Shown: in pieces, positions 31,795 through 38,294 of the stretch
Layout: each line of letters opens with the position of its first letter
Numbering within the stretch: position 1 is the first letter of the stretch
DNA from: Aquirufa antheringensis
GTDB taxonomy: Bacteria > Bacteroidota > Bacteroidia > Cytophagales > Spirosomataceae
Assembly (NCBI RefSeq): GCF_004307425.1
Contig: NZ_SEWZ01000003.1
Coordinates: 310,001 to 374,000, forward strand
Reading direction: 5' to 3'
Length of the DNA: 64,000 nt
Program-made: the position numbers and the translations under genes
Notes under the pieces: model-generated
Seen by the model: the letters and a program-made list of their open reading frames with translations, nothing else
Told to the model about the DNA's origin: nothing
Database searches by the model: none

Positions 31795-33447
31795 ATGAAA
31801 AAACACCTGATTTGCTTTCTGCTCCTTTTGCCTTCTTTTCTTTATTCCCAAAGTCTGAGCGTCTCCAATCTCCCCATCGTCCGGTTTAACACGAATACGC
31901 GTGTCATACAGGATGAGCCTAAAATCCCCGTTCAGATGGAGATTTTTGATAAGGGGCCTGGCCAATTAAATCAAGTATCTTCTACGCCCACTATCTCCAC
32001 GGTGGCCGGGGTGGAATTCCGAGGATCTACCTCGCAAGCAGATTTCTACTTCCTGCCGGGTTTAGTAAAAAAGCCTTATGGTATTGAATTGTGGACAGAC
32101 TCTACAGGTGTTAAATCAAAGAGATTGTCGCTTGTTCAGATGCCTGAGGAATCGGATTGGGTGCTAAATGCTTCTTATAATGACCGCTCCTTTATGCGTG
32201 ATTTCATCGCTCAAAGTCTGGCGGGCCGTATTGGATTATTGCATAGCAAAGCCAAATTTGTCGAACTCATCATCAACGATGAGTACCGTGGCGTGTACGT
32301 CCTCATGGAGAAAGTGAAGCAAGGCAAAAATCGAGTACCCATCTCGGATTTATATCCCACTGAAAATGCAGGGGATGATGTGACTGGAGGCTATTTGCTT
32401 AAAATTGATAAAAGTAGCGGCTCTCCATCTTCCTCTTGGAAAAGCAATTATACCTCAGGTATTACCGCTACCCAAAAATGTGAATTTCAAATCGAATATC
32501 CTCAGTACGGCATCATCACACAACAGCAATTGATTTACATCCGTGATTATATCAATAATTGGGAAAATAAATTGATGACGGAGGATATGAATGATCCGAA
32601 AGCAAGTTTTCGGGACTATATGGACGTTTCCTCCTTCGTGAATTACTTCATTCTAAACGAGGTGACTAGAAATGTTGATGGTTATCGTTTGAGTACGTAT
32701 CTGTACAAGGACAAAGAATCTTTGGGTGGAAAGATCAAGATGGGGCCCGCCTGGGATTTTAATATCGCTTTAGGTAATGCGGATTATCTAGAAGGTTGGA
32801 AGACAGATGGTTTTGTGTACAAGGCAATGGAGAATGATGGGGGCAAAAACGATTATTGGCAAGTGCCTTTTTGGTGGAATAAATTAATGCAGGATGCGAG
32901 TTTTCGTAAAGCTTTAGCAACGCGTTGGAAGGCGGTTCGATCTAGCTTTTTGAATACGAACACCCTTTTTGCTACCATTGATTCGGCGCAAATTGCATTG
33001 AAGGATCCATTGACGAGAAATTTCCAAAAATACCCCTTAATGGGTAAAAAAATCTGGCCTAATTATTATGTAGGGGCTACCCTGAGCGATGAAGTGAATT
33101 GGTTGAAAAACTGGATTCAAGGACGTCTGGTTTGGTTAGATGCCCAAATGGCCGTCTTTGATAGCCCTATTTTGGCTGTGCACGAAGAAGATGCCTCAGC
33201 CATCGTGTATCCCAATCCGTCCACTTCTGGACTATTTCAATGGAAATTCAGTTTAGATAAACCATCACTTGTGACCTATTTTATCTCTGATGCGATGGGT
33301 CGTATGATTTTGTCCCCTAAAAACGCTAATTTTGGATCAGGAGAGCAGATTCAATCGCTTGATTTGTCTATGTTTCCCTCCGGAACTTACCTACTCTCCT
33401 GGAAAACGGAGGATGGGCTCGTCCAGCAAATCAAAATTTTACGTTAA
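31795..33447 (+). CDS. CotH kinase family protein with T9SS sorting domain
   Basis: 550 residues starting directly after the previous stop (TAGATG). The signal peptide ends near LYSQ (residue 19). The CotH-like kinase core has GVEFRGSTSQ, WVLNASYNDRSFMRDFIAQ, VELIINDEYRGVYVLMEKVK, GGYLLKIDK and MGPAWDFNIALGN. The last 80 or so residues (VYPNPSTSGLFQWKF, then a strand with DAMGRMI and a final IKILR) form a type A sorting domain, so the protein is exported by the type IX system and held on or released from the cell surface. CotH family members phosphorylate proteins; the target here is unknown. Its TAA overlaps the proA start (TAATG). Confidence 0.88.
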   Translation: MKKHLICFLLLLPSFLYSQSLSVSNLPIVRFNTNTRVIQDEPKIPVQMEIFDKGPGQLNQVSSTPTISTVAGVEFRGSTSQADFYFLPGLVKKPYGIELWTDSTGVKSKRLSLVQMPEESDWVLNASYNDRSFMRDFIAQSLAGRIGLLHSKAKFVELIINDEYRGVYVLMEKVKQGKNRVPISDLYPTENAGDDVTGGYLLKIDKSSGSPSSSWKSNYTSGITATQKCEFQIEYPQYGIITQQQLIYIRDYINNWENKLMTEDMNDPKASFRDYMDVSSFVNYFILNEVTRNVDGYRLSTYLYKDKESLGGKIKMGPAWDFNIALGNADYLEGWKTDGFVYKAMENDGGKNDYWQVPFWWNKLMQDASFRKALATRWKAVRSSFLNTNTLFATIDSAQIALKDPLTRNFQKYPLMGKKIWPNYYVGATLSDEVNWLKNWIQGRLVWLDAQMAVFDSPILAVHEEDASAIVYPNPSTSGLFQWKFSLDKPSLVTYFISDAMGRMILSPKNANFGSGEQIQSLDLSMFPSGTYLLSWKTEDGLVQQIKILR

Positions 33448-34694
33448 TGTCACCTATACTAACCCAATTTCAACGTACTCGTTTTGCTGCGTCTTCTTTA
33501 GCGATGGCGAATGGCGATTCGCGTAATGAGGTGTTAGCTAGTTTAGCTGAGCTGATTCGGGTGAATTCGGCTAAAATTTTGAAAGAAAATCAACAGGATG
33601 TAGCGCAAATGGCGACTGATCATCCCATGCGTGATCGCCTCCTGTTGACCCAAGAGCGATTAGGTGCTTTAGCTGACAGTGTTATTTCTGTAATGCAATT
33701 GCCAGATCCAGCGGGACAGGTCTTATCGAAAAAAACGCTTCCGAATGGCTTAGAATTGTCTAAAATTACCGTTCCACTGGGAGTGGTAGGGGTAATCTTT
33801 GAATCGCGACCTAATGTGACGATTGATGTAGCAGCGTTGTGTATTCGCTCTGGAAATGCCGTCGTTTTACGAGGTGGTTCAGATGCCTTTCATACGAATA
33901 CCATTTTAGTTCAGATGATTCACCGAGCACTCGAAAAGCAGGGATTTTCAACAGATTTGGTCTATTTGATGCCAACCGATCGTGCGCATGTGACGACTCT
34001 ATTGACCGCGGTTAAATTTATTGATGTCATTATCCCACGAGGTTCAGAGGCCTTGATTCAGCGGGTTCGCAAAGAATCTTTAGTGCCTACGATTGAAACA
34101 GGCGCTGGCGTTTGCCATACCTATGTAGCTGCCTCGGCTGAACTATCAATGGCTGTTAACATTGTGGTGAATGCCAAAGTTTCACGCCCCTCAGTCTGTA
34201 ATTCATTAGACACCATCGTATTGCATCAGTCGATAGCGGCGGAATTTCTTCGCTTAGTGGCAGTGCCTTTGCAGAACTATTCGGTGAAAATATATGCTGA
34301 TAACGTAGCTTTCGAAACCTTAGCGCAGGTTTCCTATCCCTTCTTGGAAAGAGCAACGGAATCGGATTTCGGCCGGGAGTTTTTGGATTTTGCTTGCTCG
34401 ATTAAAGTGGTCAGAGATTTGCCTGAGGCTCTTGCACATATTACGAACTACTCTTCTCGACATTCAGAAGCGATCGTATCAAGTGATGAGATAGAAGCGA
34501 AGTTTTTCCTATCAACCGTGGATGCGGCAGCCGTTTATTGGAATGCCTCTACGCGTTTTACGGATGGAGGAGAGTTTGGTTTAGGTGCTGAAATTGGTAT
34601 TTCTACCCAAAAACTTCATGCCCGAGGCCCCTTCGCCTTAGAGAAACTAGTGACAGAGAAATGGATTGGAATTGGTCAAGGCCAAATTCGTTAA
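33447..34694 (+). CDS. proA: Gamma-glutamyl phosphate reductase
   Basis: 415 residues, normal length. It has PLGVVGVIFESRPNVTIDVAALCIRSGNAVVLRGG, the catalytic Cys in SRPSVCNSLDTIVLH, and the C-terminal DAAAVYWNASTRFTDGGEFGLGAEIGISTQKLHARGPFAL that defines ProA. It reduces gamma-glutamyl phosphate to glutamate semialdehyde, the second step of proline synthesis. The expected partner proB is not beside it. It starts inside the CotH stop and its last four bases overlap the convergent dnaX. Confidence 0.95.
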   Translation: MSPILTQFQRTRFAASSLAMANGDSRNEVLASLAELIRVNSAKILKENQQDVAQMATDHPMRDRLLLTQERLGALADSVISVMQLPDPAGQVLSKKTLPNGLELSKITVPLGVVGVIFESRPNVTIDVAALCIRSGNAVVLRGGSDAFHTNTILVQMIHRALEKQGFSTDLVYLMPTDRAHVTTLLTAVKFIDVIIPRGSEALIQRVRKESLVPTIETGAGVCHTYVAASAELSMAVNIVVNAKVSRPSVCNSLDTIVLHQSIAAEFLRLVAVPLQNYSVKIYADNVAFETLAQVSYPFLERATESDFGREFLDFACSIKVVRDLPEALAHITNYSSRHSEAIVSSDEIEAKFFLSTVDAAAVYWNASTRFTDGGEFGLGAEIGISTQKLHARGPFALEKLVTEKWIGIGQGQIR

Positions 34695-36514
34695 AATTCA
34701 TGATCCAAGCCCATTCGTTGTTTCATCTCGACTAGAATCGGATGCTTTTGGGATAAGAAATCGTATTTGTCGGATTGCGTATAAATCATCTTTTTGTCTG
34801 AAACGTCCCCTGCTATCAGGTCTAAACTGATATCGATGGCATCATTCTTCAGTTTCTCGCGTAAAGTGCCTAACAACTCCAGTTTCAGCGAGTCATTAAA
34901 CTGCTGCATTTGAACCTCGCCTTCTACCTTGATATGAATAATGGAATCGACAAGACTAATCTCGCGGTTCATCATGACATATTTATTGATGAAATTACCC
35001 TGTTTGAAACCTTGTGCGATTTGAGTCCAGACAAAATGAAGTTCTTCAAAAGTGAAGGGCTCATTTTGAACTTTTCCCTGCGCAATGACTTCAGCCGCAT
35101 GTTCGGCTTGACTAGTGCTGACTACTTTCTTTGCACTGCGTAATCCGTGACTGGTGGGTCTAGGAGGGGTTTCAGCAGAGACCACTTGTACGGGTGCTGC
35201 TTGTACGGGAGCAATCCCCTGAACGGGAGCCGCCTGAACTGGAGTCTCATGAACTGGTGTCGAAGCCACTGGCGCCGCTTTAGTAGAAACTGCTTGAATA
35301 ACGGGTTCAGCCGGAGCTACTGGAGCAGCCGAAACCGCAGCCGCAGCTATCGGTTTAGGCTCAGACTTTTTTCCGGCGCCACCCTCCACCGCAGGTTGAG
35401 ATGCGGTAGGTTGGTAAACCGACGGCAAATAGTTGATTTTCAAAAGAGTCAATTCGACGTGTAAACGGGCGTTCTTCGCTGCTTTGTAATGAATCTCGCA
35501 TTGGGAACACAAGTTCATGGCAGACAATAAGAAGGACGCAGATGTTTTCGCCGACTGCGCTTGAAATTTCGCCCGATTCTCTTCGCTTAATTCCATTAAG
35601 GCAAGCGTCTTCGGATCTTTGGCAAATAACAAATTACGGAAATGCTCCGATAGGCCAGCGATAAACTGCTGACCATCAAAACCTTTGCGCATAATCTCGT
35701 CTAATAAAACGAGAGCGTCCGTGTGGTTTTGATTCACAAAGAAATCCGTTAATTGGAAGTAATAATCGCTATCTAGTATGTGTAAGTTTTCCAGCACATC
35801 CGCGTGTCTCAGCGCATTGTCCGTAGAGAAGGTCACATTTAAGTCAAACATGGATAGGGCATCGCGAAGACCGCCATCCGCTTTGATGGATATCAATTCT
35901 AAAGCCGCTGGTTCCGCCGTAATTCCTTCTTTTTCCGCGATGGAAGAAAGGTGTGAGGCCATATCTTTCCATTGAATGCGGTTGAAGTCAAAGATTTGGC
36001 AACGCGATAGAATCGTAGGCAAAATCTTGTGCTTTTCCGTCGTCGCTAGAATAAAAATGGCGTAGGAAGGTGGCTCTTCTAAGGTTTTTAAAAAAGCATT
36101 AAAGGCCGCAGCTGAAAGCATGTGAACCTCATCAATAATGTAGATTTTGTATTTGCCGTTTTGCGGAGGATAGCGAACTTGATCGATCAGGTTCCGAATA
36201 TCCTCTACGGAGTTATTCGAAGCGGCATCTAATTCGTGAATCGTTAATGAAGTATTTTCTTGGAAAGAATGGCAAGAAGTACATTTACCACACGCTTCCC
36301 CATCTGTACCTAAATCCTGGCAATTGATGGTCTTCGCTAAAATACGCGCACAAGTCGTTTTACCTACTCCTCTCGGACCACAAAATAGGAATGCCTGTGC
36401 TAAGTGATTAGACTTGATGGCATTTTTAAGGGTGGTGGTAATGTGACTTTGGCCTACTACTGAATCGAATAGAGTAGGGCGGTATTTACGCGCTGAAACG
36501 ATAAAATTTTCCAT
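34691..36514 (-). CDS. dnaX: DNA polymerase III subunits tau and gamma
   Basis: 607 residues (tau form) from the ATG at 36514; a TTG two codons upstream was rejected. The clamp-loader AAA+ module shows Walker A GPRGVGKTT, a Cys4-type zinc site in CQDLGTDGEACGKCTSC, Walker B YIIDEVHMLS and the SRC sensor in ILSRCQIF. Residues about 375-470 are a Pro/Ala/Val-rich linker, followed by a C-terminal tau-specific domain. At codon 383 the frame carries A AAA AAG with flanking signals that would give a shorter gamma protein of 384 residues by -1 frameshifting. A promoter box ends 3 nt before the start codon. The 3' end overlaps proA by 4 nt. Confidence 0.95.
   Translation of the reverse strand: MENFIVSARKYRPTLFDSVVGQSHITTTLKNAIKSNHLAQAFLFCGPRGVGKTTCARILAKTINCQDLGTDGEACGKCTSCHSFQENTSLTIHELDAASNNSVEDIRNLIDQVRYPPQNGKYKIYIIDEVHMLSAAAFNAFLKTLEEPPSYAIFILATTEKHKILPTILSRCQIFDFNRIQWKDMASHLSSIAEKEGITAEPAALELISIKADGGLRDALSMFDLNVTFSTDNALRHADVLENLHILDSDYYFQLTDFFVNQNHTDALVLLDEIMRKGFDGQQFIAGLSEHFRNLLFAKDPKTLALMELSEENRAKFQAQSAKTSASFLLSAMNLCSQCEIHYKAAKNARLHVELTLLKINYLPSVYQPTASQPAVEGGAGKKSEPKPIAAAAVSAAPVAPAEPVIQAVSTKAAPVASTPVHETPVQAAPVQGIAPVQAAPVQVVSAETPPRPTSHGLRSAKKVVSTSQAEHAAEVIAQGKVQNEPFTFEELHFVWTQIAQGFKQGNFINKYVMMNREISLVDSIIHIKVEGEVQMQQFNDSLKLELLGTLREKLKNDAIDISLDLIAGDVSDKKMIYTQSDKYDFLSQKHPILVEMKQRMGLDHEF
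35327..35387 (-). promoter_or_regulatory. Predicted programmed -1 frameshift site in dnaX
   Basis: Read on the minus strand: GGAGGG (35387-35382), 9 nt, then A AAA AAG (35372-35366) exactly in the zero frame, then 4 nt, then a stem AGCC-T-AAACCG (35361-35351) pairing with CGGTTT-C-GGCT (35337-35327), one T/C mismatch, with a further 3-bp helix in the loop. Slippage by -1 gives Lys-Lys-Val and a TGA stop at 35363-35361. The order, frame and spacing are those of the E. coli dnaX signal. Zero-frame translation continues into the tau-specific region. Confidence 0.75.
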
Positions 36515-36517
36515 GAT

Positions 36518-36549
36518 CAAATTTACCTTTTTAAGGGATAATTCCCAAA
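36518..36549 (-). promoter_or_regulatory. Promoter for dnaX, predicted leaderless
   Basis: On the minus strand TTTG (36549-36546), a 20-nt spacer and TAAATTTG (36525-36518) match both Bacteroidota promoter elements. Only ATC separates the box from the ATG at 36514, so transcription should begin at or next to the start codon. Confidence 0.7.
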
Positions 36550-36553
36550 TGCT

Positions 36554-37420
36554 TTAGGGGATTCTAATCACCGCGCTCACCGGGAAATGATCCGTAGGAT
36601 ATTTATTGTCCCATGTTTCGCTATGGGTCGTATGCTGTAAGACTGAAGGCCCATTTTTGACAAAAATATAGTCAATATGTTTGCCCTCTTGTTCTTTTGA
36701 GAAGCCGTTAAAAGAGCTGTATGGTCCATAATGGCCATTTTGGCTAATCTTCTCTGCATCGATAACGTGCGCAGGATTTTTTGTGTCTACTAATACTTGT
36801 ATGGGCTCGTCATCTGGTGTGGCATTGAAATCACCTGTTAATATCACCGGAGATTTACCCGCGATTTCAGCAATTTTACGCAATACCAGCTTCGCACTTT
36901 CTCTGCGAGCCACTTTGCCTAAGTGATCAAAATGGGTGTTGAATACAAAGAATTTTTTACCTGTTTTGATCTCCTGGAATTGGCCCCAAGTCACCACGCG
37001 GCGGCAGGCCGCATCCCAGCCAAAACCTACCTTGTCACAAGAGTCTGATAACCAAAATGTTTTCTCTTGAAGCAATTTGAATTTCGATTTCCGGTACATT
37101 AAGGCAGAAAACTCGCCTTCAGTTTTCCCATCATCTCGGCCTTTCCCAAACCATCCAAAACCAGGCAATTCCTTCTCTAAATCCGTGATTTGATGTAAGA
37201 AAGCTTCCTGTAATCCGATAATATCTGCTTGATGGTAGCGTATCAATTCCCCACAATGCTTCGCGCGGTATTTCCATTGGTTTGCGCCATCTGATTCGGT
37301 ATCTAATCGCACATTGAAAGTCATGGCCTTTAGCTGGCCAGGGGAGGCAGTAAATTGCGCTGAGGCCGCTGTGCTAGCTAATAAAAGCACAAAACAAGTA
37401 AAGGCTTTCAATATGTTCAT
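36554..37420 (-). CDS. Exported endonuclease/exonuclease/phosphatase family protein (nested start inside coaE frame)
   Basis: If translation starts at the internal ATG at 37420 the product is 288 residues, with a textbook signal peptide (MNILKAFTCFVLLLASTAAS, then AQ). The EEP domain shows MTFNVRLD, IIGLQEAF (metal Glu), NTHFDHLG, GDFNATPDDEP and DYIFV...PTDHFPVSAVI, the catalytic Asp/Asn/His set. Such secreted enzymes cleave nucleic acids, phosphoesters or lipid head groups. The strong signal peptide argues that this protein is made separately from CoaE, since it would otherwise be buried in the middle of a cytoplasmic kinase fusion. Confidence 0.7.
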   Translation of the reverse strand: MNILKAFTCFVLLLASTAASAQFTASPGQLKAMTFNVRLDTESDGANQWKYRAKHCGELIRYHQADIIGLQEAFLHQITDLEKELPGFGWFGKGRDDGKTEGEFSALMYRKSKFKLLQEKTFWLSDSCDKVGFGWDAACRRVVTWGQFQEIKTGKKFFVFNTHFDHLGKVARRESAKLVLRKIAEIAGKSPVILTGDFNATPDDEPIQVLVDTKNPAHVIDAEKISQNGHYGPYSSFNGFSKEQEGKHIDYIFVKNGPSVLQHTTHSETWDNKYPTDHFPVSAVIRIP

Positions 37421-37990
37421 TACTTGAGGAAATACGCGGTCGTTCTTCCCGTTTTGAATCACAAAATCAGCTCCCCAAAGGTAGTTTTTAGGTTGCGGTT
37501 GTAAATCGATTATTTGCATGGTTTCCATATAACTCATACGACTTCTTTTTTGGACATTCTGAATGCGCTCCGGTAAGGGACAATCCACGGTGATCATCTG
37601 GGTGATGTGATCAGGCTTCGTGCGCGGTGTGATGAGGGCGGATTCGTATAAACAAAATGGGGCTTCTGGGGCATTTAAAATCCATTCTGAAGCTTGGGAA
37701 CGAACGGCGGGATGTATGATGGCATTGAGGTGAGCGACATCACCTGGGTATTTTTGTAAGAGGCCTTTGATCCAAGCGCGATTATAAGAACCGTCTGGAA
37801 GGTAAGCTTTAGGACCAAATTCCGCGATAATAGCTTCCTTCACCCCAGCATCCTTCTCGCATATTTCCCGCGCTACTTTGTCCGCTTCAAAAACAGGAAT
37901 CCCTAAACACGAAAAAATCCGGCAAATGGTTGATTTGCCGGATCCTATTCCGCCTGTAATTCCGATGAAAGGTTTCAGGCCTGTATCCAT
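36554..37990 (-). CDS. coaE: Dephospho-CoA kinase fused in frame to an endonuclease/exonuclease/phosphatase protein
   Basis: A single 478-codon frame. Residues 1 to about 195 are dephospho-CoA kinase, the last step of coenzyme A synthesis: P-loop GITGGIGSGKST (10-21), FEADKVAREI, IIHPAVR and the usual end ADFVIQNG...VFPQVMNIL. Without a stop the frame runs into a signal peptide (from Met191) and then an EEP-fold domain. CoaE alone is normally about 190-200 residues. A TAATG sits at the junction, with its TAA in the +1 frame, so one missing or extra base would restore a separate coaE ending at residue 189. The fusion is therefore real, or a recent or sequencing frameshift. The gene follows yajC by 4 nt. 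Confidence 0.85.
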   Translation of the reverse strand: MDTGLKPFIGITGGIGSGKSTICRIFSCLGIPVFEADKVAREICEKDAGVKEAIIAEFGPKAYLPDGSYNRAWIKGLLQKYPGDVAHLNAIIHPAVRSQASEWILNAPEAPFCLYESALITPRTKPDHITQMITVDCPLPERIQNVQKRSRMSYMETMQIIDLQPQPKNYLWGADFVIQNGKNDRVFPQVMNILKAFTCFVLLLASTAASAQFTASPGQLKAMTFNVRLDTESDGANQWKYRAKHCGELIRYHQADIIGLQEAFLHQITDLEKELPGFGWFGKGRDDGKTEGEFSALMYRKSKFKLLQEKTFWLSDSCDKVGFGWDAACRRVVTWGQFQEIKTGKKFFVFNTHFDHLGKVARRESAKLVLRKIAEIAGKSPVILTGDFNATPDDEPIQVLVDTKNPAHVIDAEKISQNGHYGPYSSFNGFSKEQEGKHIDYIFVKNGPSVLQHTTHSETWDNKYPTDHFPVSAVIRIP

Positions 37991-37994
37991 TGAA

Positions 37995-38294
37995 TTACTC
38001 TTCTAGGCGAGATGAAGCGTCTTTAGAGATCGCCGTTTTCTCGAAAACCATCCGAACCCCTTTGCTTGAGTCTACTTCGACTACGATCGTCTTTTCGCGA
38101 ATCGTAACGACCGTTCCGTGTGCGCCACCGATGGTCACCACTTTGTCACCAGTCTTTAATTCTTCAATAAATTTCTTCGCTTCTTTCGCCTTTTTTTGTT
38201 GTGGACGAATCATGAAGAAATAAAATACGACAAAAATACCTCCGAAAAGGATAATTTGCATGTACGCTGGACTCTGTGCTTGTAATAATAACAT
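37995..38294 (-). CDS. yajC: Preprotein translocase subunit YajC
   Basis: 99 residues: a short periplasmic N-terminus, one membrane helix (IILFGGIFVVFYFFMIRPQQKKAKE region, with the hallmark FMIRPQQKK) and a cytoplasmic beta domain with LKTGDKVVTIGGAHGTV. YajC associates with SecDF and SecYEG in the inner membrane. It lies between the DUF1573 gene (4 nt) and coaE (4 nt) in the conserved Bacteroidota gene order. Confidence 0.94.
   Translation of the reverse strand: MLLLQAQSPAYMQIILFGGIFVVFYFFMIRPQQKKAKEAKKFIEELKTGDKVVTIGGAHGTVVTIREKTIVVEVDSSKGVRMVFEKTAISKDASSRLEE

Follow-up and report, generated by a model that had tools for sequence, protein, structure and literature searches.

Dephospho-CoA kinase (CoaE) is generally taken to be a soluble enzyme of the cytoplasm. 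The generation of two proteins from one chain by cleavage at an internal signal peptide is known from Bradyrhizobium, in which FbcH, the precursor of cytochrome b and cytochrome c1, is cut in this way. Among the open-access papers considered, judged from titles and the beginnings of abstracts, we found neither a description of a bacterial polyprotein with an internal signal nor one of CoaE fused to a domain of the endonuclease/exonuclease/phosphatase (EEP) fold. In the case of the mycobacterial CoaE (196 residues), a C-terminal UPF0157/GrpB domain is present, which, according to the part of that study considered here, helps CoaE to fold (PMC2765170).

In this study, we describe a gene of a 64,000-nucleotide stretch of Aquirufa antheringensis DNA, the whole of which is referred to here as the window, that joins CoaE and an EEP domain in one chain. 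Its kinase domain is nearly full-length, exceeds the cut-offs of both models used (PF01121 and TIGR00152) and has an intact P-loop; unlike the usual CoaE, it leads on to an export-like signal and then to another enzyme. What the fusion shares with FbcH is the derivation of two proteins from a single chain by way of a signal-peptidase site in its interior, at which cleavage is predicted in the present case. The partners are different: both halves of FbcH are subunits of the same membrane complex, while this fusion joins a cytoplasmic enzyme to an apparently unrelated enzyme of the exported type. We consider the gene to be a real, ancestral fusion of two domains whose product probably behaves as a small polyprotein across the bacterial membrane, a reading to which we assign a probability of about 0.72, with export and cleavage predicted from the features of the junction. 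The mycobacterial protein resembles it in having a C-terminal domain fused behind CoaE, although the part of that report considered here mentions no export signal, and the domain described there aids the folding of CoaE (PMC2765170); in the window's genus, the partner is an EEP enzyme of the exported type, and five relatives keep CoaE without it.

The sequence-only reading had placed CoaE, a signal-peptide-like segment and an EEP domain in a single frame, and this arrangement is what we find (Table 1). The PF01121 match spans profile positions 2-175 of 180 (E 1.9e-33, 116.1 bits against a cut-off of 27), the NCBIfam dephospho-CoA kinase model TIGR00152 scores 83.7 against 65.55, and PF03372 is matched over positions 1-225 of 225 with 74.2 bits against 24.5. 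The two domains are linked by the stretch FPQVMNILKAFTCFVLLLASTAASAQ, whose junction codons, ...CCT CAA GTA ATG AAC ATA TTG AAA..., are all in frame; the last positively charged residue ahead of the hydrophobic core is K195, where CoaE ends. The AlphaFold model of the fusion, calculated from 13 close sequences, is poor, with a mean pLDDT of 49.9, and gives no structural information on it. GC content of the window is 43.3%. The roles of the P-loop residues (GGIGSGKS), of the EEP catalytic motif and of the other motif residues checked are those that we presume them to have, and yajC is likewise a presumed name for a gene assigned through the similarity between loci. In G000, G007, G021 and G027, which belong to the window clade, a seven-residue stretch, QFTASPG, follows the first Gln (37337-37357, minus strand) and provides a second possible signal peptidase site, SPG/Q, at residues 218/219.

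Table 1. The fused gene, its parts and its conserved neighbours in the window.
Feature	Position	Strand	Evidence
coaE-EEP fused gene, 478 aa, single frame from ATG to TAA	36554..37990	-	ORF and translation; kept in relatives
Dephospho-CoA kinase (CoaE) domain over residues 8-181, with its P-loop GGIGSGKS spanning 13-20	37448..37969	-	Pfam PF01121, TIGR00152
Internal signal-peptide-like segment MNILKAFTCFVLLLASTAASA, residues 191-211	37358..37420	-	Motif, hydropathy
Predicted signal peptidase I site ASA/Q, residues 211/212	37355..37360	-	Motif only
EEP-fold (endonuclease/exonuclease/phosphatase) domain, residues 223-468	36587..37324	-	Pfam PF03372, E 1.6e-20
yajC, conserved neighbour upstream	37995..38294	-	Synteny, locus similarity
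dnaX, conserved neighbour downstream	34691..36520	-	Synteny

Thirty genomes, one per species, carry the fusion: 29 of 38 in the window's genus, counting the genome of the window itself, and G087, the sole genome searched from a second genus. The window's genome has a single match to the 478-aa protein, and the fused relatives are 59-95% identical to it; two of them end at contig borders, G026 being partial and G015 lacking the first codons. Among the other nine members of the genus, CoaE stands alone in five (G001, G004, G008, G009 and G023), no match was obtained in G011, G029 and G030, and the match of G014 lies at a contig end. When the EEP half was used as the query against 37 genomes of the genus, 28 gave one match each, always at the fused locus. 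G218 has an extra match of 33 aa, which is the 3' end of the EEP with dnaX behind it at the border of a contig, and thus the same locus again. Outside the two genera, no fusion was found among 222 genomes of the family (36 genera, E up to 1e-110), 390 of the order (E cut-off 1e-75) or 395 of the phylum (E cut-off 1e-85), the last two cut-offs being such that a very diverged fusion would be hidden. The order search matched 18 genomes, eight of them with the fusion, all in those two genera, and ten in which the match covers the EEP part or little more, while the phylum search returned only the window's own genome. Fourteen named loci come from metagenome-assembled genomes filed as Cytophagaceae bacterium or Spirosoma fluviale, with two titles that mention a 'pond', and the carriers of the fusion are apparently freshwater bacteria. 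Regarding the assemblies themselves, in G218 the EEP 3' end and dnaX start occur once more, slightly changed, where another contig ends (L084, L093), probably reflecting a second strain, and the fused gene of G026 extends over two contigs whose overlapping ends differ at several bases (L048, L052), so that this assembly may mix strains.

We aligned 29 fused frames, namely 28 of the genus (G015 without its first codons) and that of G087; G026 was left out because a contig end cuts its frame, and its junction (L028) agrees with the others. No internal stop is present in any of them, and the thirteen motif residues that we checked are invariant in all: the G, K and S of the P-loop and D37 in CoaE, and nine residues of the EEP motifs. 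Clade medians of dN/dS (Nei-Gojobori) are 0.05-0.18 for CoaE, 0.02-0.05 for the EEP and 0.09-0.40 for the linking segment, after dropping pairs with saturated or zero dS, which leaves 13 of 21 pairs for the EEP in the window clade, and with G087 outside the clades. Both halves are under purifying selection. In most clades, the signal segment is less constrained than either enzyme, a point that counts against the polyprotein. One PF01121 match per genome was found in all 18 genomes examined (13 fused and 5 unfused), and the window gene is the sole match of its genome, so that CoaE must come from the fused gene. As judged by this family model, the fused protein is the only CoaE of the genome, with a predicted kinase activity. 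Each of the 13 fused genomes examined also encodes two further PF03372 proteins at other places, which a search with this EEP does not reach.

At the fused junctions, the end of CoaE, which reads PQ(V/I)..I.K or similar, runs straight into a hydrophobic core. A Lys or Arg stands just before the core in 29 of 29; the net charge between PQ and the core is +1 or +2 in 22 of them and 0 in the remaining 7, and these 7 count against the polyprotein. Behind the core, a Gln after a small residue is present in all 29, with Gly, Ala or Ser at position -1 in 17, 11 and 1, respectively, where the small residue was itself part of the search rule (the last Gln after A, G or S behind the core). The residue at -3 is acceptable in 28, the exception being G032, with Met. 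The positive residue, the hydrophobic core, the small residues at -3 and -1 and the Gln at +1, as defined by motif and hydropathy, are consistent with a signal peptide, which in this case lies behind about 190 residues of CoaE rather than at the N-terminus of the chain. A Gln at +1 of the signal peptidase I site is usual in Bacteroidetes, a Q-rule that the fused junctions match in the form given in the part of PMC5837995 considered here. In a crude scan of the window, 17 of 51 ORFs were marked as possibly signal-bearing, six with a Gln site, four with a Cys and seven with neither, the latter including the start of CoaE itself, a false mark.

The main rival to a cleaved polyprotein is an uncut bifunctional membrane protein, in which the segment would be a permanent signal anchor holding a cytoplasmic CoaE and a periplasmic EEP in one molecule. 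The topology of the fusion would allow it, and the hydrophobic segment is found in 29 of 29 junctions. The uncharged run, however, comprises just 11-18 residues, which is short for a permanent anchor, and the Gln and the small residues preceding it are retained at the frequencies given above although the surrounding core varies. Moreover, the same Gln is found behind ordinary signal peptides in seven of seven stand-alone relatives of the EEP. We regard the permanent anchor as unlikely.

Another way to obtain two proteins would be an internal start, with a CoaE-EEP read-through product and a separate EEP initiated at MNILK from the same frame. A second start inside coaE had been put forward in the sequence-only reading, and the window clade does have a start codon just ahead of the Lys, ATG in six of its seven fused members and TTG in G015. 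Over the 29 junctions, the interval between the conserved PQ and the last Lys or Arg contains an ATG in 9 and only GTG or TTG in 2, so that an internal start is available in 11, which counts against the polyprotein, but none of the three codons occurs there in 18, and in 10 there is none within 25 codons upstream of the last Lys or Arg. Since starts are mostly absent at the junction, the chain generally has to be made as a fusion, and the internal start is ruled out as a common mechanism by these counts. The Met of MNILK is itself a part of CoaE, as the stand-alone CoaE proteins of G008 and G023 also read PQVMNI, and this argues against its being the start of the EEP. Altogether, we find a dual product from this frame improbable.

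By sequence, the closest solved structures to the EEP are 3g6s, 4c1r (deposited as a mannosyl-6-phosphatase), 3mpr and 3l1w; the matches to 3g6s, 3mpr and 4c1r have E values of 6e-58 to 1e-46 (8.9e-47 for 4c1r). Among the open-access papers considered, none was informative on the mannosyl-6-phosphatase. While in the window's genus the EEP follows CoaE, stand-alone relatives elsewhere start with a signal peptide of their own: a signal-like N-terminus and then Gln are found in all seven that we looked at, five from the family (50-65% identity over the aligned part) and two from other families (38-41%), the Gln coming after Thr in G054 and the N-terminus having a long extension in G159. Three of eight stand-alone loci adjoin genes for a TonB-receptor/SusD (SusC/SusD) pair (G159), an alginate lyase (G138) and a GH20 hexosaminidase (G079), as seen in Pfam scans of the neighbours at these three. 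The likeliest role of the EEP would be that of a periplasmic glycan- or sugar-phosphate phosphatase, its substrate probably being a phospho-glycan or a related phosphate ester; no link to CoA is evident.

The surroundings of the gene are conserved. The order nusB-YtxH-DUF1573-yajC-coaE-dnaX, with gene names that we presume from similarity to the window genes, is common to the window, G087 and the nine other genus members laid out over the six genes (G005, G007, G010 and G036, fused; G001, G004, G008, G009 and G023, unfused). The dnaX ortholog of G087 has DNA polymerase III subunit domains in Pfam. It consists of two abutting frames of 382 and 218 aa (L088:6799-8603, plus strand), the first with the clamp-loader domains and the second matching only the tail of the window dnaX and no Pfam family; the split is a frameshift, either programmed or due to an assembly error. 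Elsewhere in the window, the ORF at 31795-33447 (plus strand) encodes a protein that combines a CotH domain (PF08757) with a C-terminal sorting domain of a secretion system (PF18962), and sits between the gene for a large protein of outer-membrane type and proA. A CotH gene occupies that place in G007, G008, G023 and G036 and is absent in G001, G004, G005, G009, G010 and G087.

In a FastTree tree of the six neighbouring proteins (1747 columns), the unfused genomes are found in two separate places among the fused ones, the root and some inner branches being weak (0.37-0.67). G034, which is fused, lies among the unfused G001, G004 and G009 in this tree (0.85). In the CoaE tree, by contrast, the three form one group (0.77), and G008 and G023 are sister to the fused window clade and not inside it. 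The two trees also disagree on G087, which is next to the window clade (0.92) in one and basal in the other. The gap between coaE and dnaX is the place where the unfused relatives bear deletion scars. Behind the new coaE stop of G001, G004 and G009 comes (C/T)ATCTACC(C/T)TAATTTGATTTTGG..., which corresponds to the last part of the EEP gene (e.g., the codons His-Leu-Pro-stop) and the spacer behind it in the fused sisters. Compared with G034, 55-56 bases align with one difference each, and the nine pairs score 90-108, whereas 300 shuffles of each pair gave 32 at most. The last coaE codons of G008 and G023, TTT GGG AAT TAA, correspond to the sequence behind the EEP stop in the fused sisters, with scores of 52-82 over six pairs (shuffles, at most 35); here, the direction of the change is taken from the tree, because the sequence by itself could be read either way. 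For these alignments, three of the six fused members of one clade and three of the seven of the other were used, and much of the score comes from the spacer shared before dnaX, the EEP remnant of the G001/G004/G009 clade amounting to 11-12 bases.

Together with the tree, these scars indicate that two different deletions removed the signal segment and the EEP together, and hence that the EEP would have been lost at least twice. Both left a CoaE of 199-201 aa, so CoaE does not need the EEP. With five relatives doing without it, a functional dependence between the halves does not follow from the fusion, a point that counts against the polyprotein. A stand-alone CoaE as the ancestral state, followed by several later fusions, is disfavoured by the two separate positions of the unfused genomes among the fused ones and by the deletion scars, in one clade of which the end codons of the EEP can still be read after the stop that coaE acquired. 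A single origin of the fusion is probable, the gene of a secreted EEP having come to lie directly behind coaE.

A cytoplasmic bifunctional enzyme, with the junction as a mere hydrophobic linker and the EEP working beside CoaE, would agree with the fact that each of the 28 genus genomes with an EEP match, among the 37 searched, has it fused to CoaE. Against this stand the conservation of the signal-peptide features, the signal peptides of the stand-alone relatives, the three loci next to SusC/SusD, alginate lyase or GH20 genes, and the loss of the EEP on at least two occasions with CoaE kept, all of which make it very improbable. An error of sequencing or assembly, or a one-base change by which one strain recently lost its coaE stop, as had been proposed from a TAATG at the junction, whose TAA is indeed one base off frame and which would be an ordinary overlap once shifted, like the one at 33445-33449 (where the ORFs 31795-33447 and 33447-34694 do overlap), is refuted by the presence of this open fusion in 29 further genomes (28 of the genus, one of them partial, and one of another genus), with TAATG at only 3 of 29 fused junctions and TGATG at 2 more. 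Nor did the comparison with sister genomes bring out any single-base difference separating the genes, the five unfused relatives being without the EEP through deletion. Given its presence in most of the genus and in G087, with identities down to 59%, the fusion is, by comparison of these genomes, old, conserved and repeatedly lost, and neither a sequencing error nor a recent mutation.

For the polyprotein that we favour, a plausible course of events would be as follows. The protein would be translated as one chain from the coaE start, as the conserved open frame suggests, and CoaE would fold in the cytoplasm and stay there. The end of the last CoaE helix (PQ...I.K) would continue into the signal core, its Lys or Arg providing the positive charge of the n-region, and the Sec machinery would take up the segment in an N-in/C-out orientation, moving the EEP to the periplasm. 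Signal peptidase I would most likely cut before the conserved Gln, releasing an EEP that begins with this Gln, which is probably cyclised. What stays behind would be a CoaE ending in a short hydrophobic stretch. The fusion might go further and couple the two compartments, by setting the output of the exported phosphatase one-to-one with the last enzyme of CoA synthesis and by tethering CoaE at the membrane in the uncut form, so that CoA synthesis or CoaE activity would respond to export, or by having the EEP act on a CoA-related phosphate ester outside the membrane; we consider such a coupling to be a long shot.

From the point of view of annotation, this locus carries a warning, as the model search labels the whole chain as a dephospho-CoA kinase, and a search for signal peptides restricted to the N-terminus would miss what is probably a secreted enzyme. 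For the biology of these bacteria, the fusion would offer an unusual natural test of how the Sec machinery copes with a signal that comes after a folded domain some 190 residues long, and of how signal peptidase I acts inside a chain, with the two different deletions providing ready-made comparisons with the fused genomes.
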